64,000 nucleotides of DNA from NCBI RefSeq assembly GCF_024713975.1, contig NC_091100.1:13546001-13610000 (forward strand), read 5' to 3'. The notes beneath the pieces were generated by a model that was given only the letters and a program-made list of their open reading frames with translations, made no database searches and was not told where the DNA came from. The position numbers were made by a program, and so were the translations under genes. This DNA comes from Paralichthys olivaceus. Its lineage: Eukaryota > Chordata > Actinopteri > Pleuronectiformes > Paralichthyidae. Every line of letters begins with the position of its first letter. The first letter of the stretch is position 1. Below are positions 22,753 to 46,190 of the stretch, piece after piece.

Positions 22753-23730
22753 TTAGAAGGGAACAGGTCCATAGTAGGCGGTGTATGCAGCGACGATACC
22801 TGCGGTCTCAGCCATCTCGTCACAGGCCACGCTCAACTCACACACCTCTTTCAGGCTGGAGAGAAATTAAAGGATGTGTCACTTTCCAGCATAAAAACAA
22901 ACTAACATGAGGTTATCCTCTGCAACATAAAGTATTTGTTTCTCACTGAGTTTACAATGAGAATAAAAAGCTGTACCTTTCCAGCTGCAGAAGGGTGAGG
23001 GCTCCTACCGCTCTTCTTCTCCTCAGGAGAACAGCAGCCAGGTCTCTCTTCATAACCACTGGAGGAGCTGAAGGGAAACAAATCATAAACTTAGACTTTC
23101 TTGAGTTTTGTTGTTGGAAACTTTAATGTAAACAATGCAGAGATTCTCTCTGGATTTTTTTCTTTGCATACCCTCAGTGCTCACTGACTCTGACTCTGAT
23201 GAGGAGGATGAGGAAGAGGAGGCAGACGAGTCAGAGGCAGAATTGGACTCGGAGGAGGCGGACTCAGAGGAAGAGGATTCAGTAGACTCAGATGACGAGG
23301 ACTCAGAGGATTCTGAGGAGGAGGAGGAGGAGGAGGAGGATGAATCGGAGGCCGAAGAGTCAGCGCTTGAGTTGGAATCGGATGCCGAGGAAGAGTCGGA
23401 GGAAGAGTCAGAAGAAGAGTTGGAGTCGGACTCAGAGGAGGAGGAGGAATCGGCAGGTGCAGCATCAGCAGCCGTGTCAGCATCAGCAGCCGTGTCAGCA
23501 TCAGCAGCCGTGTCAGCATCAGCAGCCGTGTCAGCATCAGGGTCCACGATAACCTCTGGTTCCACAGCTGATGATCACAGAAGAGAGCATTTGTTAAACA
23601 CCCCCTTGGTGCAGATAGCAGAAGGTAATATTATGACTGACAGCAGTGATGAGGAGAGTCTGTCCTTACCTCCCATGGACCAGCACACTGACAGAAGGGC
23701 GCAGATGGAGAGCAGAGTCAGAGTCTTCAT
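22753..23730 (-). CDS. bglap: Osteocalcin (bone Gla protein), large acidic prodomain isoform
   Basis: Four coding exons on the minus strand: 23,730-23,670, 23,567-23,172, 23,067-22,977 and 22,855-22,753. All junctions are GT-AG and the frame is continuous, giving 216 residues. Residues 1-20 ([13 protein letters not shown]...) are a signal peptide. Exon 2 encodes a very acidic prodomain: DTAADA hexapeptide repeats, then about 90 residues of Ser with Asp/Glu/Asn (many S-x-E/D sites, possible Fam20C-type phosphorylation). Exon 3 carries the pre-carboxylase region and an RRRR furin-type site, followed by [12 protein letters not shown]. The 45-residue mature protein has the Gla/Cys core (E11, E15, C17, E18, C23), matching the three gamma-carboxylated Glu and the disulfide of known osteocalcins, and ends YYGPVPF. 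Mature osteocalcin binds calcium and hydroxyapatite in bone matrix. A fish osteocalcin isoform with a large acidic prodomain (OC2) is described in the literature, and this gene fits it. Orthology is inferred. Confidence 0.95.
23462..23541 (-). repeat. 18-bp in-frame tandem repeat in osteocalcin exon 2
   Basis: About 4.4 perfect copies of an 18-bp unit (on the + strand, cagcatcagcagccgtgt). On the coding strand it gives the hexapeptide DTAADA in tandem just after the exon start. Copies are identical at the DNA level, so the array is young and probably polymorphic in copy number. Confidence 0.9.
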
Positions 23731-23830
23731 GATGCCTGGTGATGAGTTTCTTGCTGCAGACAAGTTGCTTTCTTGATTGCTCGCTCTTCCTCGATGGTTT
23801 GTTCTGTTTCTTTCCCCAAAGTCGAGGTCA

Positions 23831-23837
23831 ATATATA
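23831..23837 (-). promoter_or_regulatory. TATA box of osteocalcin gene
   Basis: The minus strand reads TATATAT about 100 bp upstream of the ATG at 23,730. A start site about 25-30 bp downstream would leave a 5' UTR of about 70-75 nt. Mammalian osteocalcin promoters also carry TATA boxes. No vitamin-D or RUNX element could be called with confidence. Confidence 0.6.
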
Positions 23838-23839
23838 CA

Positions 23840-25630
23840 GCAGTCCACCTCCCATGTCAGACCAGACCCACACATGGAGATAACCCTCTGATTGGACGGG
23901 GAATCAAATGTCAACGTTTCCGCTTCCACTTGTCATGAAATCTCCCTTAAACACCCACGCTGCCCCTGGCACAGAGTCCAGGAACTCATTCACCCACACA
24001 GAGACTTGCCCAGCCGCAAAAATTCCTGGCTCTCGTCTTTACGTACAGTGCATGGAACTGTATGTAAACCTAAATGTAAATGTATATATATATATGTGTG
24101 TGTATGACAGCATATATGTAAACCTTCACTTGACATCCACAACAAAAAAGGAAAACATGACCTAAGAGTTATTTTATACTTTAAAGGATTCCCCTTCTCC
24201 ATGATGCATAACAACCTTTTTCAAAAACACAGAAAAGACTCTTAAAAAATGTACATTCGACTTTAACGAACTTGTTGACCTGTAGCTGATTTACTGAATC
24301 TTAAAATACTTCCTTTCGGCTCATTGGGTAAACTGAACAATATTTTTTGCCATAAACTGCCAACGTTTGTCTGTCAATCATTTTCTGAAGACAAACCAAT
24401 CATTTTATGCTCGTTTTGTTTACCAGTCCACCAGAGTATAAATAATGAAGCAAACCTCTGCAGGTCCAAACTATTTCTTCCATAAAATACCCTTAAATAT
24501 AACTGTTTTAATCAGGCAGACCCGCTGCATGGCTCCCTCCTCAACATCACGGCTGCTAGTTGTGCCCTTGCTGTTATGCTACAACAGTCCTTGCCCCAGA
24601 TGTGATCTCCCACCCCCACAAACCCCAAACTATAGTCTGAGCCGACCACAAGCTACTAATCGAGTGACACGGAACAGCAGTGAGCCTCATTATGCGACAG
24701 AGCTTAATTAGAATGTTGCACAGTCCCACCAGAACCACAGTCAGTCACTATTTACAGATCCATCTCGCTCCAGGTCCCGGACAGATCCAGCAGAGAAGCC
24801 ACGGCCTACCAACGCCAACCAGCGGACCAACACGCAGCCTCGCTTGATATATTTCAGCATATATACAGCTAAATATAGGAAAACCCCATGTGTTGGATGC
24901 GCAGCTTTATGCATGCGGGTTTGGATGTAGCTGTTTGAGCGATATGGTTCAAATGTGGCTGCAGTTGTGGGTTTTTGATAGAAAAGAAAAAAAGGTATTT
25001 GGAGTTCACAGCTTGGACCTAAACCATGTTGCAACTTAAAAACTGTCTAGATAACCAAACATTTATGCGCATGTAACACTCCACGTATATTTATCTCAGA
25101 GCGCCCCAAAAACAGCTTCATTTATCATGAAGGCCTGCAGGGAGGAAGGTGGTGCTGCAGCAGAGTGACCTTGGTGTCCTTTGTGTTTCATAGTCTAGCG
25201 TTATTCCTGGTTTCAGGGATTTGTCTTGGAACTCGTGCCGTGTAATTTCAATGTCTGGTGCTCTGTTCATTTTTTTGGAAACACTGTAGTGTGCAGCTGG
25301 AGAAAACAATTGCAACAACATCTCAGAAGAGGCAGGAAATACAGAGTCTGGAGCGTTTTGGATCATTCACTCTTTTGTTGTTGTATCTTGGCAGTGAAAT
25401 CCCTTCATCCAGACAATGAGTAAAGCCCACTGTTTTTCACTGGGTTTACACATTCTCTTGTCTGTGCAGCAGACTATACAATACAATGCACAGATGCCTC
25501 AGAAGCTGTTGGCTAGTCAAAACCAATCAGTTCATCCATATTTGAATATATCTATATTCACCAAAACTTCACATATTATGTTGATTTCTTTCTTAATGTA
25601 CTCATTGCAAATTAGGTTGGTTTGTGCCTG
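23840..25630. other. Upstream flank of osteocalcin, no gene recognised
   Basis: Mixed sequence with a short AT dinucleotide run near 24,085-24,097. Plus-strand open frames at 24,445 and 25,416 have no recognisable family, no clear splice context and no coding bias. The moderately GC-rich part at 24,500-24,850 shows no convincing exon. Confidence 0.5.
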
Positions 25631-25634
25631 AAGA

Positions 25635-25735
25635 AGAAGAGTGGTCCAGAAAGTCAGTAGTTTGATTCCAGCCTCCCCTATTTATTGTGCCTAAGTGTCC
25701 CTGGGCAAGATACTAAACCCCAAACTGAGAGGATT
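25635..25735. mobile_element. Fish dispersed repeat fragment (SINE-like)
   Basis: Contains a tRNA-B-box-like GTTTGATTCCAGCC and the phrase gtgtccctgggcaagatact followed by aaaccccaaa. These are hallmarks I know from abundant short repeats in teleost genomes. Only a fragment is present, with no target duplication seen. Family assignment is from memory. Confidence 0.55.
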
Positions 25736-25805
25736 TCCTTGTGTTTCATTTGTAATCACAGATTTCTTCCTTTCCTTCAGATCATTTTGGGAACATCTAC
25801 TCTCC

Positions 25806-25905
25806 ACTGGTTGATCCTGTCAGTGATATATGCTTGTCTCAAAGATAAAATCATGCAAGTCTGAGTGCAGATGGTCGCTACAACGAAACAAAGAATAGCT
25901 CATCA
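25806..25905 (+). pseudogene. Degenerate 5' fragment of 18S rRNA
   Basis: Starts ctggttgatcctg and continues with atatgcttgtctcaaag, atcatgcaagtct, gaaac and agctcat. These are in the order and spacing of the first ~100 nt of eukaryotic 18S rRNA, with scattered substitutions (roughly 80% identity by eye). It lacks the rest of the rRNA and is surrounded by unrelated sequence. It is therefore an old inserted or retro-copied fragment, not a functional rDNA unit. Confidence 0.85.
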
Positions 25906-26564
25906 ATCTTGTTTAGGAAATAATCATCCTGAGTTTAGTTGAAACATCAGGAACTGACTGAAAAGGAGTCGTCACATGTGACTCAAACACAACCAGCAGA
26001 TCCACTACAATGACTAATGACAGTGGGTTAAATATTCATAAAAGTGTACAACAAATCCAACTGAGAGGCTACAACAGGAGCTATTTCTATTGTTATGCTT
26101 GATGAAGTGAACTGTATTTTTCCTTTTCTTGTCCTCACCAGCTTTTCTCCCCTCGCATGATACACATGCACTATATCACTGCAACAAACAACCTTCAAAT
26201 CACCAGCTGCAGACGTGCATTCAGGACTTTTTAAAAAACGATACCTCAGGGTGCGTGTGGAAGCTCACAGCCTAGACAGAGTGTTTCCTGTCTCTCATGC
26301 TGTTGTTCAGAGTGTGACATCATTAAGGTGCTGGGGACTGATTGAAAGGTGTTTTAATAAAAGAATTTTACTGCTGGACGTCGTGTGAAAAACAACCTAA
26401 TGTGAATTCTTCTTTTTTTAATATTACAAGTCTTTTTTTAGTTTTTTACATTGACTCTAACGAGTCACGATCTGAAAATCATGTGCATTTGTGTGTCGTG
26501 GATTGAATTTAAGGGGACAGTCGTTGGAGGGGGAACTACTGAGTGTTATTCTAGTTTTAGTATT

Positions 26565-26700
26565 ATCTCCACCAAAGAGGTTATGTTTTGTTTCTGTCTG
26601 CATTTTTGTTGTTTGTCAGCCTGTTAACAGTATTATGCAAAAAACACTGGATGGATTACCATGACAGTTAGTAGGAGGATTCAGAATGGGTCAAGAAAGA
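26565..26700 (+). mobile_element. Dispersed repeat remnant (family shared with 62,405)
   Basis: Begins ccaccaaagaggttatgtttt and continues with a TGT-rich segment, then actggatggatta and gtcaagaaagaac. The opening matches caccaaggaggttatgttttc at 62,415, and the ending matches agaaagaacccat there. It is an old copy of a dispersed repeat typical of fish genomes. Confidence 0.6.
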
Positions 26701-27334
26701 ACTATTTTGTTAACATAGTGAAATATTTAGAATGTTACTGAAGATAAATCAAGGTTTTCTTGCATGTCAATAAAAGTAAAATTGAAACTTACATATTCCA
26801 TAGGGGATAGTACATTTTGAAAATTTTAGGTGCAGGGGGTTGGACCTAAAAGTGTATTTTGCATGAAATGTGAAAATATTTTTTGCTGTGCTGTTACACA
26901 TGTATACTGTATGTACTGTATCTAACTGCTTATCAGACTGATACTAGACAGAGCAACATTTACTGTCTTCACATGTTCAGGTGTCCCAACACACCAGAGG
27001 CCTCAACTTTTACTTATCACTTGTAAAACAGCCTTTTAACACAATCTAGTGCTGCATACTGAATTTCAATTTTCTGTCAAATGGATCATGATAATCTTTT
27101 AGAAAGATAAATAACACCAGCTCCAGTTTGACTTATGGCCTAGTTTACCCGCTGCTTATTTATGGGACAAGTCTTACTTAGAGACCAGTTTTAGATGAAG
27201 ATTTATGACATTTCCTTAATGGGACTGAGAGCTTCCAAGTTGCTGCTCAGTTTAGCACAACGGCACATTGAGCTCTGCAGTGGTTTTCACTGTGTTCTGG
27301 AGAACAGAGAAGTTTGTGTTTGAGCAGGAGATGA

Positions 27335-27366
27335 AGGAGGAGGAGGAGGAGGAGGAGGAGGAGGAG
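27335..27366. repeat. (GGA)n trinucleotide repeat
   Basis: About 10 consecutive GGA/GAG triplets in non-coding sequence. Confidence 0.9.
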
Positions 27367-28164
27367 AAGTACTTCACATGTCACATCTAGAGAAAAGCCA
27401 TCAAGGCCTCATGATCATTAATTTAACACACACAGTAGCTTCTTCACCAGCGTTTCAATGGTCACCAAGATTTCCCAGGTGTAATTAATGGACATTGATG
27501 AAAAAATTTTCTCATTGATACCAATGTGTTGTCTGATTGGTAGAAGGGTACATTCATATTTAAAGTTATATGCAATGACTGGGGCTAACTCTTTAATGAA
27601 GTGGCAGCAGCTTATAGTTCACTCCACTGATGATGTCGTGTCTGTCACCCTTCAACTCCCATCATTTCACACATTGATGTAAAACTGTCACATCTGTTGT
27701 CTGTCTCAGTTGCACTGTGTGTATTTCCATCTGGTCTCTGAGAAACGTCCACCTGCCAGGCTTTCCCAGTTCCGCCGGATGTATCCACTTGGCAATACAA
27801 CACCACTAATTACCCTGATCCCAGTCTGGGCCTCGACATTCCCATCCCTCTTGAGAGAATATTTTTGGGACTTGCTCAGAACGTTTTCTCTCTTGATGCC
27901 TACACACCATCTACTGTTCTTTTATAGAGCTTTTATAGATTTTATAGCTAAATACTTTGAGTTTATATAATTTTTCTGAACTGTATGTGAGTTCTGCCTC
28001 TGATTCCTTCGTCACAGGGGATCTTTAAGTTAGTTTGTCCTGCACACATGAAGCTTCTCACTTAATTTACACACTCACCTTGCCCAGCGTGACTCACATG
28101 AGAAAGTACCACTAACTACTGTGTCTTAACTGCCCAGGGTCGGATCTTCCCTGCCTGCTCTCTG

Positions 28165-28344
28165 TCAGTCTCTCTGAGGTCGCTGTGTTGTGGTTCTGAC
28201 AATAACATTCGCGGACAGACCAGCAAACTGCGCCAGATCACTACGGCTTGCGGCCGGTGACCTGTGGTCGGGCCACAGACGGGGCTCGCACTCTCGTAAA
28301 CAGACAAAACACAACATACACAGGGTAAATAAGTGAGGACGCAT
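28165..28344 (-). CDS. Uncertain CpG-rich small ORF with signal-like start
   Basis: On the minus strand, an ATG at 28,344 opens a 59-codon frame. Its first 19 residues (MRPHLFTLCMLCFVCLREC) resemble a signal peptide, followed by a polar, Arg-rich tail ending at 28,165. The segment 28,200-28,310 is clearly richer in CpG than the surrounding AT-rich DNA. I do not recognise the protein, no TATA or splice support was found, and an overlapping frame is also open. It may be a small secreted protein, part of a missed gene or a repeat remnant. It lies in the position between a Gla-protein gene and erp27. Confidence 0.2.
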   Translation of the reverse strand: MRPHLFTLCMLCFVCLRECEPRLWPDHRSPAASRSDLAQFAGLSANVIVRTTTQRPQRD

Positions 28345-28821
28345 GATAGACACACGCACACATGCAAACCTTCACTTTGCATTGTCTCAGTTGTGCCAAC
28401 AGAAAGAAACTGCACAGACAGAGAGGAATGCAGAGTCTGCTTGTTTTTTACTGAACAAAGAATTCACATCAGATGCACCCTTTTCATTTATGTATGTATT
28501 TAATGTATAATAATGTATTTACATTTGTAGGTTGGGTTTTAGAGCTCTGTTTTGGGTTCTGCTCCAGCCTGTTTCACGTCCTGGAAAATAAAGTTAACAT
28601 GAATTGCAGCAGACAGAACAGCACTGGGGAACATATAAAACAATTAGACTTCAAGTCCACGTCAAGTCACCAATCAAGTTTATCCCAAGTGTATCTGTTT
28701 TACTTTTGCACTGAGACAAATACTTTGCCATTGAACTGAATTTATTTTCTCTTTTGTTGACGTGGCTCTCTCTGAGGCTTTTTTCCCATTAACAGTTAAT
28801 CTTTTTGGTGTCTTTACTTTA

Positions 28822-28827
28822 CTCTTG
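28822..28827 (-). other. Weak candidate for the last erp27 exon
   Basis: The minus-strand acceptor ccttaaccctcag precedes CAAGAGTAA, which in phase 0 would add only Gln-Glu and a stop. In another frame the following sequence reads KVKTPKRL, slightly like the KTPKVEL tail of human ERp27, but reaching it would need a different acceptor. The evidence is thin. Confidence 0.15.
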
Positions 28828-29567
28828 CTGAGGGTTAAGGGCAGAGGATGCTGCACCTTGCTAAGCCCTATGAGATACATTCTGATTTATGAATATTGAC
28901 TACAAATTGTTATTTGATTGATAGATTGATTCAGTTTCCCCTTGAGGTAAACAAAAGAAATTTTCCAATTGAGGATTTAACTGCACCTATATGTTTATTA
29001 TAGTAATTCATTCATTTATTCAACTTAATTTTAACTTGGACAAACACATTACAATACAGATGAGTACAGAAAATAAAGAAATCAGGACACAAAGAAAACA
29101 CAAATAAGAAGCAGCTTAATTTGCAAATTAGCAAACGTAAGAGCAAAAGTAAAAGCCTCAGGAACAAACACAGTGCATAAAATGTAATTTTAAACAAATT
29201 AACACTGGGGATAAAATAATGTAAGATAAAAAACTTAAATTGTCCTAAGGATAAAAACGAGTTCATCTGTGTGTGGTCTCTTTTGCAGGTGACTCTGCTT
29301 CAGACTTTCAAATTATTCAAATTTATACAGCTTGATTTATTTATTAATATATTTATTTTTTAGTAGTTAGCACAGAAGAGAGATGGGGGAAAAACTGAAA
29401 TAAGGAACCACATTTATCACAGTAAACAAATGGTTAAAAGCCGAGGGACATTCAAGGGGAAAATGCAATGAAAACTTTTCTTTTCCAGGCAAAGCTCCAG
29501 TTCAGAACTTGAAGAAAATCTGTGGAAAGTTGTGACTGGACCGGAGGGAAATGAACCAAACAAACAG

Positions 29568-29618
29568 CAGCAACACAACACAAACAATGACAGTGTCATT
29601 GTTTGTGTTGTGTTGCTG
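29568..29618. repeat. 51-bp near-perfect palindrome
   Basis: Two 25-bp arms are exact reverse complements (left 29,568-29,592, right 29,594-29,618) around one central G. The arms contain cagcaacacaacac on the left and its complement on the right. A transcript would fold into a tight hairpin with essentially no loop. It is too short and loopless for a typical pre-miRNA. Confidence 0.95.
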
Positions 29619-30346
29619 TTGCATGATTGATGATTTCGATGATATATAATTTTAACATACTTTCATTAGTATGTATATTTAGTTTGACACTAAATGTCAA
29701 AAAAATTGAAATATTGCATTTCTTACTCCACAACATTTATATGGCCACTCCTGTGACACCTCAACGAGGTACAACATTAAAATGCTTCCTTCATGTTGAA
29801 CAGGAATAGTAAAGTTTATAATTTTGCCAGTTACACAAAAACATTTACCGCTAACTGAACTTTAACCTGTAACTGAGTTCTCCAGTGTTATTGCTACTTT
29901 ACCTTTAAGTTAAACAATTTAGATACTTTTTTTTCCACCACTAAAGATCCAGTGCCAGTTATTTAACAGATCTATCGTGATCTGAATTGAGACTGTGTCA
30001 CACCCGGCTGCAGCTCTGTGTGGTGCGACACAGCAAATTAGTGACAGAGTGAGGTTTCCTGTCTTTTGTGTGGCACTTCTACTTCACTGTGACAACAAAA
30101 AGAGCTTTTCTTCTTCTACATCACTGGTGAGGCCTTTGTCCTCAAGGCCAGGGGAGCAGTATTCCTGTTTAATTTTTAATGTACATTTTTAAATCTTGTC
30201 TGTGCCTGTGCTGCTTATTTTTAATTCAATGAACGTTGTCACTCTTTTTCAAACTTAATCTACATCCTCTCAGTGAAATCAATAAAACATCAAAATCATA
30301 TGTTGCAGGTCAAAAACATCTCATCAGGCAAATCCTGACTGCTCAC

Positions 30347-31728
30347 CTTTAGTTCTCCTCGCAGGAACGACTGGCAAAACTCCCGCACTCGTTCAGGAGA
30401 AATATCTCCTACAGGAAGAAGCCACTTCATGTCTGAGTTACCGTCGTAGATGCCAACTCGTGGGAGGTCTTGAGACTTGATGCCAAAGTAGCCGAGTGAC
30501 CGAGAGTTGGACTTCACGGCTCCATTAATCAGCACGAACAAGAACTGGAACACAGACTCATGATTTAACCTATTGTACAGAAAGTTACTGCAGATATGAA
30601 ACTGCTTTGAGTTTTATGAAAACCATTCGGTTGTGTTGGATTTGTGATATCATAAGAATACACAAGGTTTATGCATAATTTATTACATTTTAGTTTTTTA
30701 ATACCAAAGAATATGAAATAAAGCATCATCTTCGGTGTCACGCCATCTTCATTATTATCGATGAATTCTTTGAAAAACAAATGTTTGTTTGTTAGTGAGC
30801 AGGATAACTGCTTCACTGATTTCCACAACTTTTGTGGAGGACTAAGGAAAGAACCCAATCCATTTTGCTGTGGATCTGGAACAGGAGGCGGATGCTGGAT
30901 TTCTTTTCACTTTCTTTAAATTTGTGGACAATTATAATGTTTTCATTGATTATTAATTGATGGATCTTAATGATAAAATCTGATATGTTTAGGGCACTGG
31001 TATTTATGAGTGTGTGTAATTTTTTGTAGATCCAAATAAAAATCTGGATCTGGTGAAATTAGATTTGGTTTCATAAGGGGACTGTGGGACCTTTAAAGAA
31101 TGAATACTCAATTGATTGACATTCTATCAATCAGTTCACATGAGCTAGACCATGTATGGATCACGGAACAGGTTTAGTCCAGAGGACATGTATGGGATGG
31201 GTGGTTGTACATGTCTGTGTCCACTGGCCTATTGTCTCATTATCTGCATGTCTGGACTCAGTTAAGTGAAAGAAAATATATAGATGACTTAACCAATTAA
31301 AATAATGGAGTTTTTTTGTACATCATGAATCAAGAGCTCCTTGACAGCTGTTTTCCCAAAAGCCAAGATTTTGTAACTAATATTAATGCCCATATCAGGC
31401 AAGAATAAACTTAGACCTAAAACTTTTTAGAGGTAAATTAATTTAATGCATTAGAGATTTGCAGACCTGCAGTCAATATAATTAGGCACATTATGGCCCT
31501 GCTGTGACTCTAGTTTTCATTCTTACCTTGCCTGTAAACTCAGGGGCCAAAGCTCTGAGTTGCTCCTTGAGCTCAGTAAATTCTTTAGTCCCTCTGTTGG
31601 CAAAGAGCAGGAGGTGTGACTTCACCTCCGAGTTGAACAGGCCCACTGCCGTCTGAGAGAAAAACAGAGGGTTAGGACGGGAGACGTTCTTTTTCCACTG
31701 ACAAACCATGATTAATGTGCACGTGCAT

Positions 31729-31790
<62 letters not shown>

Positions 31791-34552
31791 CTATTAATCA
31801 CTCTGGCTACCTGTCAGGTTAAAAATGGGTGGGACTACAGTGGGAATTTATGATGTCACAAATCTCTATGCACCAGAAAGAGTAATGATGGGTCAATAGG
31901 TAATCCCGCCCTGACGGGTGATACCAAATTAAAGGGAAAATGGAGCTGTCAGTCAAATTCAAGCTGTCCTCACCAACGTAGAAAGCACTTGTGCTTTAAT
32001 GGGACAGTGAATTTTTGTGTCTTCATTTGTCATCATAGCATGTGTTTAAATGAAATGAGGCTTTGATAGAATAGGTGACAGGAATAAAGTCAGAGTCTGT
32101 TAACACCATGCAAAGTATTTATATGTCAGTGATGAAGACATGTCAGTCCTACCACTTGGTTGTATTCTGTGATATATCGGATCTCATTGACGCTGATGAA
32201 ATTTATGAGACCATCAGTTTCCAGCTTCTTGGCATCCGCGACAACAAGATTGTCCTGGTGATTATCCGCCTGAATCACACAACACACAGCCACAGCATCA
32301 TCATCATTAAACTGATGGTACATCATCATCGTTGGATAATGAACAGTGATGTTGTGAAATACCTTCCTGAAGAGGGTGATGGTGTCTGAGGAGAGCTGGT
32401 ACTCAGCCCACACCTCCTTCGCTGTGCAAATGGCGACAGGAACGGAGTCGACGCGCTTTGCAGCTGCAACAAGCTCCTTATAACCACGACTCTCCTCTCC
32501 CTGAAAAACCAGAGTGAGAGAGAGAGTTACAGAACGGAGCTGTTTAACTATCTCATCTCATCACATATAGTCTTTTACTCTTTTCCAAAAGTTGTTTTTC
32601 TTTAATTATTACACATATATTGCAAATCACTTATATCCTGCTTAGCCAACACTGCATTTAACCACTGACATTTTAAAAGAAAATTTTGCCTTCATCCATT
32701 TGCAGGGTGAGATATAAGGGAAAAGAAAAGTAACCAGATACATTTACTCAAAGTACTTAAGTTTTTTAGACTTGAACAATGATGCGAACCAGTCTGCTGC
32801 ATAGTTAGTATTTTTGATACATTAATTAAATCTTGTTAATAGTACTTACATATTTTGAATCTTGAATTTTGACAATTTTTTTCATCATGGTGTTGTAACG
32901 TTTAGAAAAGAGTTATGCAACTTTACTTCATGTAAAAGATGCTGTTTTGGTGTATTTTTAAAATGTTTGTGTCAATATTTATTAAAGTCGTTTTAATCTT
33001 AATCATGCCTAGAATTAGGTTTTACACCTATAATAGAATTAGGATGGTAAAAGCATGAGACGACATATATACATGTTAATACAGTATTCTACCTTTGCTG
33101 TACCCTCAAACACCACCAGGTGCCCTTCTAAAAAAGTGCAGGAGCCACAGACGGAGACGAGGAATAGATAAATACAGTGGACCAGGAAGCTGACTCATTC
33201 AAGGTGAATCATGTCTATTTCTGAGTATTACATGAGCTCTGGCACTCTGTTTTATTATTTTGCAGCCTGTAATATGTGTTCATTCCCAATGAGTCACAGC
33301 ATCAATATTTTGGTCTCTTGTAGCCTTCAGTATGATGATCCAACTATCCTCATGAGTTATCCTCGTGTGGCCTCCTGCTCTCTCCTCCCATGAACCTTTT
33401 CCCTGCTCCTGCTCTTGTTTATGCGAGCTTCAGTGGAGCCAATCCCACAAGACTTCAGATATGCATGTATTTCCTGTCGAGTGGCCGGCCATCTTCCCCT
33501 GCGTCTGGCCAAAGGGCTCGCCTCTGTGGGGCGGCCAGCCACCCTCAGTCCTCAAAGCAGCATCAGCGTTGCCAAAGGTGTGGCCATAGGAAATACATCC
33601 TTCTTTGAGATCTATTTGTGAGAGCGGCATCACAGAGACCAAGCTGCAAACAAACACTGTATTTTGGGAGCTCTCACAGTCTCACACTCAGATAAAGATA
33701 ATCTGTCAGATCATGGTGTGCCGCATGCATGTTAACATAGTAAACTAGACCATAAAACAGTGTCTGTGGGCTTGCTTTAAAAAATGTCTGGAGGTTTATT
33801 TGAGTTCCAGGGTTGAGACTTTTTTTTTCTCTATGTGCGATTGTTTTGTCTGACCTCCAGAAATCCGATGACCACCACCTCAGCAGAGCCGATGAAGGCC
33901 TCTACAGCGTTGGTGTCATTCAGCTGAGGAAGAGCAGTGTCTGAGGAAGAAGAACACAGGTCAGCATAGTTTGTACCTCACAGTTATTGTCTCAATAAAA
34001 AAGTCTACACAATGTTAGCAAGTTAATATGCTCGCAGGTATTTATGCCCCTTTACGGGGGGCAAGGCAAAACTATATGTACAGAACATGATCACACACCG
34101 AGGTCGTTCAAAGTGCTTTACAGAAATAAAAGAGGCATATAAATACAGATCAGAAGGATCAAAGGGTAAAACATTAAAAAAAATTCAAGTAGAGAAACAG
34201 TATGAAAGCACAACTAATAAAACAGGCACATTTTGTAATATACATAAATCAAGCTAAGAATGTACATGTTTTATATATTAATAATCTTAGTTTAGTTTAT
34301 CAGCATGCTAGAATTTCCTAAGTAAAGCAGAGGCTGATGGGAAAGTTTTGTTTTTCCAGAGTTTGATCATTAATCAGAATATTGATTTATGGAGCGCTGA
34401 TCATATCAGGTTCATCTTCCACATTTAAAGCAGAGAAGAGCTAAGATGATAAATTATGAAAAAAAAAATACAAAAAAGTGTAGTTAAATCAATTTACCTT
34501 TCTTTGCAAAGGCAGAGGAGACCAGGAAGGTGAGGAACAGAGTGATCAGCAT
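30347..34552 (-). CDS. erp27: ERp27-like endoplasmic reticulum protein (3' end unresolved)
   Basis: Six coding exons on the minus strand: 34,552-34,498, 33,940-33,855, 32,500-32,363, 32,269-32,153, 31,652-31,527 and 30,544-30,347. GT-AG junctions keep frame for 240 codons. Residues 1-16 (MLITLFLTFLVSSAFA) form a signal peptide. The rest resembles the two thioredoxin-like (b and b') domains of ERp27. Landmarks that match human ERp27 in order are AVEAFIGSAEVVVIGF, FISVNEIRYITEYN, TAVGLFNS and EFCQSFLRGELK. There is no CXXC motif, so it should be a non-catalytic PDI-family member that binds unfolded clients and recruits ERp57, as known for ERp27. A good donor (AAG|GTGAGC) ends exon 6, so a further exon with an ER-retention signal is expected but was not found. 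Unspliced read-through would end at 30,296. The human position next to PDE6H supports the call. Confidence 0.85.
30800..31090. mobile_element. Dispersed repeat remnant in erp27 intron
   Basis: Similar in order of motifs to 62,480-62,710: tgtggaggac, aagaaccc, ttcactttctt, gatggatcttaatga, atgtttagggcactg and tttcataaggggactg. It is an old copy of the same fish repeat family, lying between the fifth and sixth recognised erp27 exons. Confidence 0.6.
31731..31789. repeat. (AC)n microsatellite in erp27 intron
   Basis: About 29 uninterrupted AC dinucleotides. Confidence 0.97.
34063..34215. mobile_element. Fish dispersed repeat remnant in erp27 intron 1
   Basis: Contains gggggcaaggcaa, a diverged atatgtacagaacat segment, and ttcaaagtgctttacagaaataaaa. 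This order is characteristic of a very common teleost interspersed repeat. No ends or target duplication could be defined. Confidence 0.55.
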
Positions 34553-34599
34553 GTTTCAGGTTTCCACCGACCAACGGGCTGCGGCTAAAACAAAAGAAA

Positions 34600-34830
34600 A
34601 CTCAGGAGAGGTCAGAAGACTTTTGTAGCTGTTTGACTCTTGTCCCCTCTGCTCTGTCCCTGTCTCACGCCACATGGCAGCAGCCCCTGCTGCCACAGCA
34701 ACTTTCCTGAGACGTGATTGGAGGCTTCGTGGGAACCAGCAAGGTGTTCTTGACAGGGTTGGGTGGTGGGACATAAGACTACGTGTCGCTGTTCGACAGG
34801 AGACAAACGTGTATGCGTTTGCACAATATG
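34600..34830 (-). promoter_or_regulatory. Probable promoter region of erp27
   Basis: This GC-richer stretch lies directly upstream of the ATG at 34,552. On the minus strand it has a CCAAT box (about 34,717-34,721) directly next to a GACGTG-type core (ACGTC on the same strand). This spacing does not match the canonical ER-stress element (CCAAT-N9-CCACG). A start in this region is inferred from position only. Confidence 0.35.
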
Positions 34831-34839
34831 GAAACATTT

Positions 34840-37800: not shown

Positions 37801-38640
37801 TGTGCAGGATATAAATGTTTGTGTTCTACACACAAACCCTGCGGTACATCATGTCTTTTTAGATGCATCTGTCATTTCAAAGAATCATGCCATTTACTAG
37901 GTTGAATCATGTTTGCGTGAGTGCTCCCAACACATTAGACAGAATTGACATTCAGATGAGAGCTATAGGGGGTGCAGGTAAACCTGGGACGGATGGATTA
38001 CTTGTGTTTGTGTTGTGGCCTGCAGGTTTCAGACGTCACTATATTTCAGGTACACAATGTTAAACCCTGTTAAGCTTTGACACAGCCTGAGTGTGAAGGT
38101 CTCACATCATGTGGTAATAATCCTCAGACCCTGCTGCTCCTCACACTGGTGGTGGCTCACTTAAGCAATTTACTCACACAAATGTGCACATTTATCATTT
38201 GAAGAAACGAGAAACATCAAGTATGAAATATCAAGATTATTAAAATAATCACCTTTAAAGGTCTTTTTAAAGGTTTGAAATTAGATGATTGATGCATCTA
38301 CAACATTGAAGAAAAAAACAACCATTTAAGAAAACCACTTCACAATAACACACTGCATAAAATGAAAAGTAATATAAAATATCCACATCATTTGAATTTA
38401 TCAAAATTATATACTTCAAAAAATCCAAGATTTTTTAAGTGGTATGTTTGGGACTTTAAATCAGCTGTAGATGTGAATGTGAGTGTGGATGGGTCTCAGC
38501 TCTGTCCAGCGTGGACCCCACCTCTCATCCAGTGTCAGTTCAGATTCACATCGTTTTGTCTGAAGTGTCCAACTGCTGATGGTTTAGGATTAATATGATG
38601 TAGGTGAAAGTGATGGTGAAACTGTTTTCAGTTTGGATTT
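34840..38640. other. Intergenic AT-rich stretch, no gene recognised
   Basis: Long AT-rich DNA including a local AT inverted repeat near 35,315-35,347. No exon with family similarity was found on either strand. Human ARHGDIB lies between ERP27 and PDE6H, but no ARHGDI-like exon is visible here. Confidence 0.5.
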
Positions 38641-38654
38641 CATGGGTGGGTACC

Positions 38655-38716
38655 TTAGACTGAATACTGTCTGATGGGGAAGCCCTCGGCCTTGATGACA
38701 GCGTTTAATCCTTCAC
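38655..38716 (-). CDS. Orphan terminal-exon candidate
   Basis: A good minus-strand acceptor (tgtctcctgtgcag) precedes 62 nt that read, from phase 1, EGLNAVIKAEGFPIRQYSV and then stop. Third positions are mostly C or G (GTC ATC AAG GCC GAG GGC TTC CCC ATC), unlike the AT-rich surroundings, which suggests coding. I cannot name the protein. No matching upstream exons were found between here and 41,844. It may be the last exon of a small unrecognised gene or a pseudogene fragment. It cannot be spliced in frame onto the neighbouring pde6h exon. Confidence 0.3.
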
Positions 38717-38719
38717 CTG

Positions 38720-41260
38720 CACAGGAGACAGAATCTGCATCAGCATTTAATACAGGGACCAAAACATGTGGCATGACACTGCAATTACAGGCTGTGATTA
38801 TGTAATAAACAGGTGATTTGTGCACATCAGAAAATAAATGGAAATAACCACAGTGTGGAAAAGCTGATAATATCAGTTTTTTCATTTTTGTTTATTGAGT
38901 AATAATCAAGGTGGTCTGATAAAACCTGTGATTTGATGATAGTCGACCCGAGGTGAAAAATACTTCAGCACAGAAATAAAACAAAATGGCGACTGCTTAT
39001 TTACAACAGCTACTGCAGATAAATATGTCACAAGCTACGGTTTGCATCAGTTGCATGTGTATTGTTGAAACTTGTCATGATTTAAATCAAATGTTTGTAT
39101 TCTGAGCTTCATTCATTTAAAAACTATTATAATGAATGAAATTTTACATATAGAGAGGCGTGCATGATAACATCCACCCACATCTGCAATGTTTACAAAT
39201 TATGCTAAATGCATGATCATAGTTCAAATTGAACTTTTTAATGTAAAATATGGCTCAGATCACATGGTAAAAATACCATCAATGTGTGCATGTTGTAATC
39301 CTAGCTGCTCCCATGAGGAACAGCTACAGTGGATCACCTCCTGCATTTGTTTACACACCAATGTGCTTTCTTGACTTGGGTGTCGGGGAATCAGGGACTT
39401 AACCACAAACCCACAGAAAATTGCTGCCCCTGCACCTGCACCACCACTTCCCTACAAGCCTCTGCCCCCTTAATACAACTGTGTACATGTGTGTACATGT
39501 GTTCCTGTAAGTAACAGTCATGGTAAACTCTAAAGAAAACATCTCTGACTTTTAAAACCCGTGTACGTCTGTAATGACACATATGGATAAATCCCAATCC
39601 TCTTAGAGCCTAAGATGGCAGCTTACCTCGCCTCAGACTGAGAGTCATGGCTTCATGTCAGAGCAAAAAACAAAGTGGAAAACAACATCCTCTGGTCCCA
39701 AGTATCACCTGAGATAATTTCACCTTCTGCACTGAGCTCTCTGAGAAATCTTTAAAATCTAATTTTATTTTGTTCAAGCTGCTGCTGGCATTTGGAAAAG
39801 AATCTATATCTATATGTAATGTTAGAACATTGATTTGTGTAAAGATATTTAGTCAAGCTGATGTCCAGAGACATATACACAAAGTTAGAAGGGTGCAGTC
39901 ACGGACACATGGCCTTGTTGATCAAGTCTCTCCTTCTAGGAACTGTGTTTTTTTTTCCACATGCTATAATTTGTGGGTGATTCCTGGATGTCTGAGTTGT
40001 TATTGGGTAAGAGATTTTGGTATGCATCATTGTCAGCAACAACAAAACCTTATACGCTAGTGTACATGTATAAAAAAATATTTCTCATGGCTGTAGCTTT
40101 GCTCTTCATGCTCAAACTAAAATATGAATTAGAGCCATGGAAAGGGAAACAAATCTGAGATTACAAGAATAGGGCTGTAGTCTTCAAGTGGAGCTCTGGC
40201 AAATATTGGTTCTCCTTGCTGGTTATTTCCTAAATAACTTCTCATTAAATTATTACTTAATTTTTGTTCTATTAAGACTTTCTTCTCAATTTAAACTTTA
40301 TTCTCTCAATATTAAATTATTCTCAAAATCTCAAAAAAGATTTCATCCATATGGCCCTAATACTTGCAAATTAAAGAAATAGCACAAAAATCTATTTTTA
40401 GTTGAACTTGTTGTAAGTGGTAGCTCTTTGCACCCAGTGATGAGGGGCTGAAGACTACTAGAAAAATGTATCTAAAAAGTTTGGGAACCACTGCTCTACA
40501 CTGAGATGTTGTGTGGGCTTCATATGTTAAAGGCTCAGAGCTCACAGTAGAATGAGATATTGCCCCTGAGATTTCTACCTTAAAATCACTATACATACAG
40601 TCATTCATCCATCCATTCATTCATATTCACAGAAATGTTATAACTATTAACTAATATGATAATAATACAACACTTTGGTTATGTGAGGTTCATCAGTCTA
40701 AATGTCATTTTCCAGACCTTTGTTTCATCTCCTCTCACTCTTTCATTCTCTGTGTTCATCCACTTTTTCTGCTTCATGTCCCTGATGATAAAGTGGCCAA
40801 AGGATTCAACATTAGGTTTGTTATGTTTATGCCACGTTGCACAGAGCACTGTCCTCTCTGTCAGCTCCCCGTTTGAAGGCAGCTAATTGGTGCAGTGACA
40901 CAGATGCACATTGATATCTGGAGGCCACCAGCAAACAACACAAACATAGATATAACCAGAGGAGCTGCTAAATATTTCATTTATATCTTAAAGAGTGCAT
41001 GTCCTCAGTTTCTGAAGTAGCCTATATGATGTCAATGGTGGGTTAGGGTTCGTGTTAGTGTTAACTCTCTTTTCTTCTGGAGAAATAGAGTGGACCGTTT
41101 TTGTGAAGAAGAAGGTTTTGTTACCATGGAAACAACGGCTTGAAGTTTTCTTCCCTGTTTTCTATTTTCCACCAGCCTCTGTCCTTGAAGACAGATTTAT
41201 TTTTACAGTTTGAGAGATGAATATAACAGTGCGGAAACTAAAACAACAATGGACTAAGAG
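38720..41260. other. Intergenic stretch, no gene recognised
   Basis: AT-rich with no identifiable exon. Contains the hAT-like terminus listed separately and a short degenerate telomere-like ggttagggtt near 41,041. Confidence 0.5.
40430..40493 (-). mobile_element. hAT-type transposon terminus remnant
   Basis: The minus strand starts CAGTGGTTCCCAAACTTTTT, the classic terminal motif of hAT (Charlie-like) elements. The paired end and 8-bp target duplication were not identified, so it is a fragment. Confidence 0.55.
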
Positions 41261-41398
41261 CTTTATTTTGCTAAGTGTATGTGCATTGAGTGAGGCCAGT
41301 AAACAGTGAAAGTCACAAGAGGCGAAACAACATGTATGTATTTCTCTGTGTTGGTAAAAGAAAGAACACGATCACATATGTTCTATGGAAAATCCACA

Positions 41399-41404
41399 TT
41401 TATT
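41399..41404 (-). terminator. Candidate polyadenylation signal, pde6h copy 1
   Basis: AATAAA on the minus strand, about 440 nt beyond the stop. A second lies at about 41,263. Confidence 0.4.
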
Positions 41405-41843
41405 ATTTTTATGGAGTTGTTCCTCTCTACTGACAGAACAGACAAAGCAGAGACTTTTTTCCCTGGAGAACAAAATGACCAAAATTTAATCTGATTTATC
41501 CGATTAACAATATATTACATTTGTCATTTTTCCTTTGTCTAGATTTGTCAATACAGAGAAAGAGAGAAAATAGGAAAAAAAGAGAGGTTTTGGATAAAAG
41601 AGAAGGCAGGGATGAAAAAAGTATGAGAGGATGATAGTGAATTGCAGGAAAGGCAGGGGCAATTAAAGTGCATTGGACAAGACAGAGTGCCAGAATATTA
41701 TTTTTCCAGGTCAAACCTCTAAATCATGAAGGGCTGCCTCCTCTCTAAAGCACACAGGTAGTAGATCTTCAGCTGCTTAAACAACAGTAGGAATACATGA
41801 GCGACTATAGTGGCAAATAGGGGCAAAGGCAGAGGAGAGAGGT

Positions 41844-42173
41844 CTAAACAATTCCATATTTCGCCAGGTCGCTGAGCTCCATGTCGCCAAAGGCTTCCCA
41901 TGGGCAAATCACGGTGATGTCTGTTCCCAGACCCTCCATGCCCGGGATGTCATCTCCGAATCTGGAGACAAAAAACATCTGATGTTTATAAAGTCAGGCT
42001 GGTGGTAAACTGACAACAGGGTAGTTGCACACTAAGAGAAAGTGTGATCGTAATGTGTCTTACCCTTTCTGGCCTGGTTTAGGTGCCTTACTCTTGAAGG
42101 TGCGCATGGCCCTCTGCTTGAATTTAGGAGGAGCCTTTTTGTCGGCAGGTGCTGCAACGGCGACGTCTGCCAT
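41844..42173 (-). CDS. pde6h: Photoreceptor PDE6 inhibitory gamma subunit, copy 1
   Basis: Two coding exons, 42,173-42,064 (110 nt) and 41,961-41,844 (118 nt), joined GG|A for 75 residues. The protein has the PPKFKQR...FKSK polycationic region that contacts PDE6 and transducin, then [16 protein letters not shown] and the CPWEAF C-terminal inhibitory segment ending KYGIV. The family inhibits the PDE6 catalytic core in photoreceptors until transducin removes it. The N-terminus is shorter than the human 83-87 residues, and the positions of human PDE6G Thr22 and Thr35 are Ala and Met. The exon starts at an acceptor 12 nt before the ATG (42,185), and a noncoding first exon is inferred with its donor at 42,585. 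Calling it pde6h (cone) rather than pde6g rests on the erp27 neighbour and general resemblance. Confidence 0.93.
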
Positions 42174-42584
42174 TTCGTTTAGTTACTGACATAAAGAAAA
42201 AGGAGAGAAAAACATAGAATGTGAGTTTCTTGCAGATCTTTTAAACCTTGGATTAAAACTTTTCAATTTGCCACTTTGCTTGTATTCAATTTCATTTGGG
42301 CCTTCTCATTCATATCTTACACTGCGCTGTTTCCGTACACTTTTGTTAAATTAAAGTGTTTTCTATCCTCTTCAGCAAGCTGATCATCGACCAGGCCATT
42401 AACATAAGTATACACAAGTATCATTTTCAGCTCCATGTCTCTTGATAACAACTCTGAAGCCATTTGTCTGTCTGCATTGCTCTTCTCTAAGAAAACTGAA
42501 AATCTGAGGCAGCACATGTTGCCACATCAAGAAGAGCATTGAACCCCCTGAACACCAGCTGAGAGAACTGCAGTGTCATCTTAC

Positions 42585-42660
42585 CTTGTGTTGAAGTCTA
42601 TGAAGAACAGTTTTTCAAGATGCTGTCTGTTGATCTTGTCAGTTTGTCCTCTCACTGTCG
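42585..42660 (-). other. Inferred noncoding first exon of pde6h copy 1
   Basis: Minus-strand AACACAAG|GTAAGATG gives a strong donor at 42,585/42,584. The start is estimated about 25-30 bp below the TATA-like box, near 42,645. Copy 2 has the same arrangement of a noncoding exon and a coding exon. Confidence 0.5.
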
Positions 42661-42670
42661 AACTGTCCCC

Positions 42671-42697
42671 TTTTAAAGTCCTGCAGGCTGTTAATCC
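42671..42697 (-). promoter_or_regulatory. TATA-like box plus CRX/OTX site, pde6h copy 1
   Basis: The minus strand reads GGGATTAA (TAATCC on the + strand at 42,692-42,697), then 14 nt, then TTTAAAAG. GGATTA is the core bound by the photoreceptor regulator CRX/OTX. The layout mirrors the promoter of copy 2. Confidence 0.6.
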
Positions 42698-42907
42698 CCT
42701 CAGATGTTCAATCTGTCATTCTTCTATGTGCCAACTCCGCTCGCTCCTCTTCCATTCCAGATTAGCCACAAATAGACAAGATCAAGGATGAAAGATATAA
42801 ATACAAGGTGTATCTTAAGTTGGCACCGTGTGCTGGCAGTGCACCGACAGCATGACTACCAATTTAAAGACAAAACAAATCTGAACATAATACATGTATT
42901 GTCTCTT

Positions 42908-42934
42908 CTCTGTCTGTCTGTCTGTCTGTCTGTG
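42908..42934. repeat. (TCTG)n microsatellite
   Basis: About six tandem TCTG copies between the two pde6h genes. Confidence 0.9.
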
Positions 42935-43076
42935 TCACAGGCCTCCACAGTCAATTTGTTACCCACACATACCCCTGCATCATGAAAGCTTTTGTAATGT
43001 GTTTATAACATAACTTAACATCTCTAACTACTATTTGAACCTGTGTATATTATTCAAAATCATTCTATCAACATTT

Positions 43077-43357
43077 GGTAACACTTTATATTAGGGAACA
43101 CACAAAGTGAACATAAACAAGCACTTGATTGTAATTCATGTACATCGACTTCCTTACTTATCATCAATAAGCAGTAATTAGGAGGTTATTAAGGGAACAC
43201 TGTTAATCAAGGTAGTAGTTGCAGAATAAGGTAATTAAGAATAAGGCTTTAATAAGTGCTTTATAATGACTAATAAAGAGCCAATATGCCTCTAATAGCC
43301 ATGCTAATAAGCAACTAGTTAATGGTTGATATGTGTTCCCTAATATAAAGTGTTACC
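43077..43357. mobile_element. 281-bp MITE with 25-bp inverted ends and 8-bp TSD
   Basis: Left end GGTAACACTTTATATTAG... (43,077-43,101) and right end 43,333-43,357 are perfect 25-bp inverted repeats. CAACATTT flanks both ends (43,069-43,076 and 43,358-43,365) as an 8-bp target duplication. The interior has no coding capacity. An 8-bp duplication points to hAT-type transposase mobilisation, though the terminal bases are not the usual CAG. The element lies between the two divergent pde6h promoters. Confidence 0.93.
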
Positions 43358-43369
43358 CAACATTTTATC

Positions 43370-44440
43370 ATCTATACATTTTACACTTTTATAATTATAA
43401 TAGTTATACTAAACATTACAGTTTATTATTTCATTTTATGTTAGATTTCTACATTTGTTAAACTGTATTATTATGATAAATAATTACTGACTACAACATA
43501 AATGAATTAAATCATTTTCCAACTTCCCAGGATTCAAGTCCCCTACATTCTTCTTTGATTTTACTGAAGCCTACTTCTCTACTACATTTAATTGTAATAA
43601 GTAGTTTTTAGTTTTATACATGCAGTATACAGTTTATTTAAGGTCATGAATAAGCTTGAACCATTACCTGACACCTTGACAACTGAGTTCTAGTCATCAT
43701 GACACATCAGTTTTAAAAAAGCTGACTTGGCTTGGATGACCTGTGACCTCATACCTAGTTCAGACACGAGGGAGGGTTAAAGGAATGAGAGAAACTTAAA
43801 GAACAGATTAGAAACCTTTAAGATACCAAAGCCTGGGATGTACAGTGGCATGGTTTGAAAACAAACGTGCCCTGATGTCGCCTGCACACTGATCTGGAGC
43901 ATGTGATGTAAAAGAGACGTCCTGAGGCTCCGTTTAGCTCACTGCTGACAAATAAATCACTTCATCGTTCAGCTTTTAATCCCTCGTCTCATGGCAGTGA
44001 CTGAGGGTAGAGACAGAGACAATTTACCTCAACAATAATGTCACATGAAAATTGGAATCGAAGGGCAGAAATAAAAGAAAACATTAATTTAGAAAAGTCA
44101 GCAGTTATAATCCATGATCTTTATATTCTGTGACTGAAAAGTTTGACATTCAAACTCCACTTTCTATGACTTTTTCCACAGCTTTCATTTTCTCAATCAG
44201 ATGATGAAGACATTGAGATGTGGATGAAAGCTCTGCAAAAGTGAATGTTAAAACTTTCACTCATATCAGCACATTCAAGATCAGTGTTTTAAAACTGTGA
44301 AATGCATTCATTGTCATTGCAGAATAATATATCATCCTACAGTTATAATACATGAATGTATATATTATTACTGTACAATAACATTATTCTATAAGAACAT
44401 ATTCAGAAAACAATCAGGCTCTACTTTGTTTTTCTCAGAG
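43370..44440. other. Intergenic part of the divergent pde6h pair
   Basis: AT-rich with no gene recognised. It may hold shared regulatory DNA for the two genes, but no specific site was identified. Confidence 0.4.
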
Positions 44441-44532
44441 TGGCATCATTATGTAAGGTAAACATCGTCACACGTCTTGACGGATAATGGTGGAATCCTG
44501 AGCCCCCTCCCTAATCTCATAGAGCAGAAAGG

Positions 44533-44618
44533 CCAATTAGAGGATGGGGAGTTAGGAAAAAAAAAGGAGAAGTTTATGGATGAGCATGTTTGGGGGATTA
44601 GCAGGGGGTGTATATAAG
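44533..44618 (+). promoter_or_regulatory. Promoter of pde6h copy 2: homeobox, CRX and TATA sites
   Basis: CCAATTAG (44,533-44,540) resembles the photoreceptor conserved CAATTA element. GGGATTAG with core GGATTA (44,595-44,600) fits CRX/OTX. TATATAAG (44,611-44,618) is a strong TATA box. A start near 44,640 leads into a noncoding exon ending at the donor CAACAG|GTAGG (44,700/44,701). Confidence 0.65.
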
Positions 44619-44639
44619 AAGAAGCAGTACAGACGCCAG

Positions 44640-44700
44640 AAAGACTCACACTGAGAAGAGGAACTTTGGACAGAACCCATTTGTTTGACTGCGACAACAG
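44640..44700 (+). other. Inferred noncoding first exon of pde6h copy 2
   Basis: Bounded on the left by the expected TATA-directed start and on the right by the donor gtaggatcac. The intron of about 1.16 kb ends at the acceptor tctctcag before 45,857. Confidence 0.55.
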
Positions 44701-45868
44701 GTAGGATCACACTCTGAACTTCACTGTAGGACTTCAGAAAGATACAGTGAGAATCATGGAAGAGCTCTCACTGTGTATAGATCTTTAAAATATTTTAAAA
44801 TATTTGAGGAGGCATGCATGTGTACTGGGATGCACTGCTTAGCCTTATCTCTAGCTTCTTCTAAATGTATACCTTTATTAGTTTTACACATTGCATCTTT
44901 GTTTTGTATATATTGTCCTGTTTACCTTTGCTAGAACTTTGTCAATATTGTTTTTAAAAGTGTTATATAGGCAACATTTACCTAATTCATAACTTACTTT
45001 TACTTTGAAGAGACACTGAGGTCCATGGAGGTCACTTCCTTTATTCTCTGCATTGACATAATGCCATTTAGAAATTCTGACAATGCAGAGAATTTGTAGA
45101 ACCTTACCCTTTAATTATTACTATTACATCTAGTTTGCATTTTCAGTTCAATATGTGAATAAGATCAAACAATTACCTGTTCTTTCATCAAATTTGTATT
45201 TCTTTGTGTTCGGGGAGGGGGGAGGGGGTTCAGAAATCTGTTGAATTTTAGTCTTTTTCCCATGGGAAAAGACACAAATAGTATTGAATTGTAAATACAG
45301 GCAATGTCAGTGAAAGCATCTGTGATAGCAATAAATAAACTACTTATTACTAGAACTTGATCTCTGACATGTAAATTAGAAAAGATCTTATTACAATATC
45401 ATTAAGTACAGATACAAAAAATGGATGTACAACTAATTGATTAATCAACACTGATTACACGTGCTACAGTAATTTTAGTATCATCACAGAAGATTCCTGC
45501 TGATCTTTTCTGTGAGACACCACAGAGGTCAGAAATAGTTGGGATTAAAGCAGGTTGAAAATTAGTTGACTCTCAGTTTATAATTTACAAGGTACAGCAT
45601 GTGTGTTGACTAACTGTGGAATTAAGTGAATTAAATTATCCTGCAGGTCTCAAGATGTACAAGTCTGTAACTTAGCCAGGAGTAATCTTTAAAGCCAAGG
45701 AGTAAAAATAGACAAAGCTGTTTGTGTAACTGTGTCTTAAGGATCTGCACAGCTTTGGTCTAAAATTGGACCTCACCTGTGTGTGTTACATCAGCTAAGG
45801 TCTTACACATGAAGATTAACAAGATTACCTGACTTTTGACTTTTTTTTTCTCTCAGACTATAAAAAAA

Positions 45869-46190
45869 ATGGCAGACACAGCCGTTGCAGCACCCGCCGA
45901 CAAGAAGGCCCCCCCCAAGTTCAAGCAGAGGGCCGCTCGCACCTTCAAGAGCAAGGCCCCTAAGCCAGGCCAGAAGGGGTAAGTACAGGATATGAAAATA
46001 TTTCCTCAGACCAAAGGTCAAGTGAAACATAACCAGGAAATTAAAACATGTCTTTGTTTTTTGTTTTTTCAGATTCGGAGACGACATCCCCGGCATGGAG
46101 GGTCTCGGCACAGACATCACAGTGGTTTGCCCATGGGAAGCCTTTGGTGACATGGAGCTGAGCGACCTGGCGAAATATGGAATCGTCTAG
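45869..46190 (+). CDS. pde6h: Photoreceptor PDE6 inhibitory gamma subunit, copy 2
   Basis: Two coding exons, 45,869-45,978 (110 nt) and 46,073-46,190 (118 nt), encode 75 residues. The protein differs from copy 1 at only three positions: Thr4 for Val, Ala23 for Met and Val55 for Ile. The exon phase is the same and the introns differ, with many silent differences. All functional segments are kept: PPKFKQR...[22 protein letters not shown] and KYGIV. The ATG follows acceptor tctctcag by 12 nt, as in copy 1. The position equivalent to human PDE6G Thr35 is Ala. The gene is transcribed away from copy 1. Both are intact with photoreceptor-type promoters, so both are probably expressed in retina; rod or cone partition is unknown. 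Confidence 0.94.

Follow-up and report, generated by a model that had tools for sequence, protein, structure and literature searches.

The stretch of DNA studied here, referred to below as the window (64,000 nucleotides, C8:13546001-13610000, in a 588-Mb genome of 25 contigs), carries the gene of teleost osteocalcin 2 (bgp1b, OC2, bglap-like), an already known second fish bone protein. This gene very probably descends from a duplicated chromosome segment, most likely through the teleost genome duplication, with mgp being kept together with the ordinary osteocalcin gene, bgp1a, on C5. The data point to the acidic gene being a segment-duplication copy of ordinary osteocalcin, the tandem step between mgp and osteocalcin probably being older. 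The excerpted text of Leurs et al. (2021, PMC8006282) shows that the gene arrangement of the window is already published for other teleosts. The exon-by-exon comparison of both osteocalcins within one genome is an addition of the present analysis.

Osteocalcin 2 was read as a complete four-exon gene on the minus strand, encoding 216 residues and a stop in a spliced model with AG/GT at all junctions (Table 1). A composition count of the 132 residues of exon 2 gave 63 Ser, 18 Asp, and 12 Glu, and the exon contains four DADTAA repeats and 9 Ser-x-Glu sites. It thus has the hallmark of OC2/bgp1b, a large prodomain that is both Ser-rich and acidic (63 Ser and 30 Asp+Glu among 132 residues). The spliced frame places a signal peptide exon and a predicted furin-type site ahead of the mature protein. 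The Gla motif ExxxExC is present as ESLKEVCE, formed by exons 3 and 4, and is accompanied by an osteocalcin C-terminus. The mature part of 45 residues matches the solved fish osteocalcin 1vzm with E 2.4e-16, the best of the 11 chains listed, among which are nine more osteocalcin entries. Pfam returned 0 families for an 84-residue version of the protein without the acidic exon, and neither osteocalcin 2 nor the C5 osteocalcin is among the 16 matches of a genome-wide Pfam search with PF00594 (Gla). Since Pfam missed the gene, its identity leans on the osteocalcin match. The ANxF carboxylase docking motif is absent from the 216-residue protein.

Table 1. Features read in the window, numbered from its first nucleotide
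Feature	Position	Strand	Reading
Osteocalcin 2 exon 4	22753..22855	-	Gla domain, two Cys, C-terminus AYYGPVPF, stop (ends 22753)
Osteocalcin 2 exon 3	22977..23067	-	Last part of propeptide, furin-type RRRR site, mature protein begins
Osteocalcin 2 exon 2	23172..23567	-	Acidic Ser-rich prodomain; AG/GT sites and composition
Osteocalcin 2 exon 1	23670..23730	-	Signal peptide; ATG to GT donor
erp27	30347..34552	-	Six exon readings, limits approximate (about 34499-34552, 33855-33941, 32363-32497, 32156-32269, 31527-31652, 30347-30544); last coding end not located; 4f9z match
Extra pde6h copy	41844..42173	-	Two exons, intact, 75 aa; PF04868 E 2.4e-40
pde6h, orientation as expected from C5	45869..46190	+	Two exons, intact, 75 aa; PF04868 E 1.5e-40
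rbfox-family gene (anchor exons)	50735..61241	-	2cq3 E 4.3e-14

The earlier note on this DNA had reported an osteocalcin with a large acidic prodomain beside erp27 and pde6h, and this was borne out by the 1vzm match, by the match of erp27 to human ERp27 (4f9z, E 1e-38, best of 12), and by PF04868. The setting is also that of OC2/bgp1b: erp27 adjoins the gene, and the window is without a detectable mgp exon. The Pfam label of the pde6h genes is 'PDE6 gamma' only, the letter h coming from the earlier note and the literature. The two copies lie head to head on opposite strands and share 72 of 75 residues. It is the plus-strand copy that has the orientation expected from C5, so the minus-strand one seems to have arisen as an inverted duplicate at this site. 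This second copy had been missed before and is added by the present analysis.

The left third of the window (32-20352) is filled with a satellite array of period 206 bp, which ends 2.4 kb from osteocalcin 2. Its open frames repeat about 600 bp apart and are rich in PNPNGNPN. They recur through the 20 kb to the left (C8:13526001-13546000), so that the array is about 40 kb or longer. CA/TG simple repeats occur near osteocalcin 2 (21117-21452) and inside an erp27 intron (31730-31790).

A search of the genome with osteocalcin 2 minus its acidic exon gave 5 matches. Three of them are exons of osteocalcin 2 itself, and one is an osteocalcin on C5 (E 1.1e-10), around which 200 kb were then examined. 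The fifth, also on C5 (E 0.6), is not credible. The C5 gene, osteocalcin 1 (bgp1a), occupies C5:19329852-19331092 and has four exons of 58/39/85/103 nt, exon 2 being placed through AG/GT sites and the reading frame. The exons of osteocalcin 2 measure 61/396/91/103 nt. All three intron phases are identical in the two genes, and a tenfold difference in length is confined to exon 2, which has 396 nt in the acidic gene and 39 nt in the ordinary one. The mature osteocalcins have 29 of 45 residues in common. On these likenesses, osteocalcin 1 on C5 is the closest relative of osteocalcin 2 found in this genome.

The mgp gene was found about 3 kb upstream of osteocalcin 1 on the same strand (about C5:19325743-19326729). 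It reads MRSLLQFLALCAVASVCVCYG, an ANSF motif, then ERRAETCEDYSPCRFYAYRHG, and its Gla core is ERRAETCEDY. The other C5 neighbors were read from filtered open frames, among the matches listed, so genes may be missed. Downstream of osteocalcin 1 they include ddx47 (3ber E 2.1e-29, the next-best match being 8.4e-13), a FYVE-domain gene, and a non-muscle myosin heavy chain. A further downstream frame is presumably wbp11-like, Pfam giving no family for it. On the upstream side there are pde6h, rbfox, and a receptor which we take to be gprc5, Pfam giving 7tm_3 only.

The reading frames of C8:13566501-13630000 were searched against the 200 kb of C5 with a limit of E 1e-6. Matches were obtained at 16 anchor places, 12 of which are strictly collinear in inverted order: one in osteocalcin, two in the plus-strand pde6h, and nine in or around rbfox, including its 5′ exon, which lies outside the window at C8:13629283. 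Two others correspond to the exons of the second pde6h, the one on the minus strand. The remaining two, near C8:13611046, look repeat-like, since they match two separate spots and a control locus. The control, nine loci totaling 28 kb from other parts of the genome, produced 2 places, of which one is the same repeat; the test region was seven times as large as the control. The C8 and C5 blocks are collinear and inverted, which argues for duplication of the segment; judging by these matches, the C5 block is the paralogous, inverted counterpart of the window block. The genes are split between the two, with erp27 and osteocalcin 2 on C8 and mgp, osteocalcin 1, and ddx47 on C5.

The earlier note had proposed that the acidic osteocalcin is a tandem duplicate at the MGP locus which kept its linkage. 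The grouping of the gene with erp27 and pde6h agrees with this proposal, as does the published scenario, which makes Mgp and Bgp an old tandem pair (PMC8006282, excerpted text). However, the partner of the acidic gene is osteocalcin 1 and not mgp, as seen from the mature residues and the common exon structure, and mgp lies on C5 in one of two paralogous blocks. Because the C5 block is the collinear counterpart, the acidic osteocalcin would be a copy of ordinary osteocalcin and not of mgp. A tandem origin of osteocalcin 2 from mgp was rejected on the osteocalcin 1 likeness together with the collinear C5 block, and we consider the proposal as a whole highly improbable. Parts of it survive. The acidic osteocalcin does lie in one part of the old Mgp/Erp27/Pde6h block. 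Similarly, an ancient tandem step is retained for the Mgp/Bgp pair, as the excerpted text of PMC8006282 has it, but not for the acidic gene. The earlier note had also named, as an outcome that would speak against it, mgp lying elsewhere with its own conserved block. In the literal sense this is what C5 shows, yet the C5 block is a duplicate of the window block. The case shows how linkage to an old locus can be mistaken for descent by tandem duplication if the whole locus has been copied.

Relics of mgp were sought in the window, and erp27 on C5. Exons 1, 3, and 4 of mgp served as queries against the window with a limit of E 50, and among the matches listed none was better than E 0.24. That match, the best for exon 1 (8 of 17), is the signal exon of osteocalcin 2 itself and no mgp relic. 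For exon 3 the best was E 0.97 among the matches listed, and for exon 4 it was E 0.63. The best window match of the exon 4 core (E 0.98) is likewise osteocalcin 2's own Gla exon. The pattern ExxxExC..C..G, when scanned for, occurred nowhere in the window and twice on C5, one of these two matches being mgp. No second mgp was found within the window, the examined C8 flanks, or the 200 kb of C5. The erp27 exon readings had no match in the same 200 kb of C5 at E up to 0.01.

Leurs et al. described two settings of osteocalcin genes in fish. According to the excerpted text of their article (PMC8006282), mgp accompanies bgp1a and ddx47/wbp11 in all the teleosts screened except bonytongue, and bgp1b accompanies erp27, without mgp, in the screened teleosts, again except bonytongue; the zebrafish bgp1b contig was too short for syntenic markers. 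Bonytongue has two bgp1 loci, in each of which the osteocalcin is found with an mgp, and pde6h is present in both regions. The same text treats OC2 as bgp1b, the teleost genome duplication having left two bgp1 copies, and infers that the ancestor of jawed vertebrates already had Mgp and Bgp as a tandem pair. The human MGP is on chromosome 12 and BGLAP on chromosome 1. The authors call for more teleost data on the scenario. Some of their nodes, based on 129 positions, are weakly supported. The acidic isoform itself was described by Laizé et al. (2006), as cited in the excerpts of PMC3517302 and PMC10043431, the former characterizing the OC2 propeptide as Ser-rich, potentially phosphorylated, and calcium-binding.

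These reports bear on the age of the duplication. The C8/C5 anchors come from one genome and give an order and no date, which would leave room for a recent duplication, segmental or chromosomal, within the lineage of this fish in place of the teleost genome duplication. We assign such a recent event a marginally smaller chance still than the tandem proposal. It is opposed by the same split in the screened teleosts (bgp1a/mgp/ddx47/wbp11 vs. bgp1b/erp27) and by the two bgp1 loci of bonytongue, both taken from the excerpted text of PMC8006282. Furthermore, the mature osteocalcins differ at 16 of 45 positions.

The origin that we favor, duplication of a segment, can be outlined as follows. An ancestral segment with rbfox, pde6h, erp27, mgp, bgp, and ddx47 would have been duplicated. 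The C5 copy would have kept mgp, bgp1a, the wbp11-like gene, and ddx47, and the C8 copy, that of the window, where no mgp was found, would have retained erp27 and bgp1b. The event would most likely be the teleost genome duplication, a dating that we adopt from the excerpted text of PMC8006282. Exon 2 of bgp1b, about ten times that of bgp1a, most likely grew after the duplication, this being the direction in which we read the change. On balance, we incline to the view that it expanded in place via short in-frame repeats, from 39 nt to 396 nt, into an SCPP-like, probably phosphorylated mineral-binding prodomain, with the intron phases kept. The osteocalcin 2 precursor would be secreted, and, by analogy with the family, its Ser-rich acidic prodomain would be phosphorylated and bind calcium. 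A furin-type protease would then be expected to cut after RRRR, as in other family members, and the 45-residue mature protein would presumably be carboxylated on conserved Glu and bind bone mineral, as the family suggests. With both blocks present in one genome, they offer a clean comparison for studying how one osteocalcin came by its acidic prodomain. The C8/C5 pair also frames the question of mgp retention on one side only.

In general, osteocalcin 2 can be set against three known systems. Matrix Gla protein, encoded on the other chromosome (C5), resembles it weakly in the signal-peptide exon (8 of 17, E 0.24) and in the Gla exon (E 0.98); it carries the ANxF motif (as ANSF), whereas osteocalcin 2 is without ANxF. 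Teleost bgp1a (osteocalcin 1) is like it in having four exons, in intron phases, and in the layout of the mature protein, but its exon 2 is 39 nt long as compared to 396 nt, it adjoins mgp, and it lies near ddx47. With teleost bgp1b (OC2) no substantive difference was found: the acidic Ser-rich prodomain, the Gla domain, the erp27 neighbor, and a flank in which no mgp was found are the same, and the present genome adds an extra copy of pde6h in inverted orientation and, close to the gene, a long satellite array.
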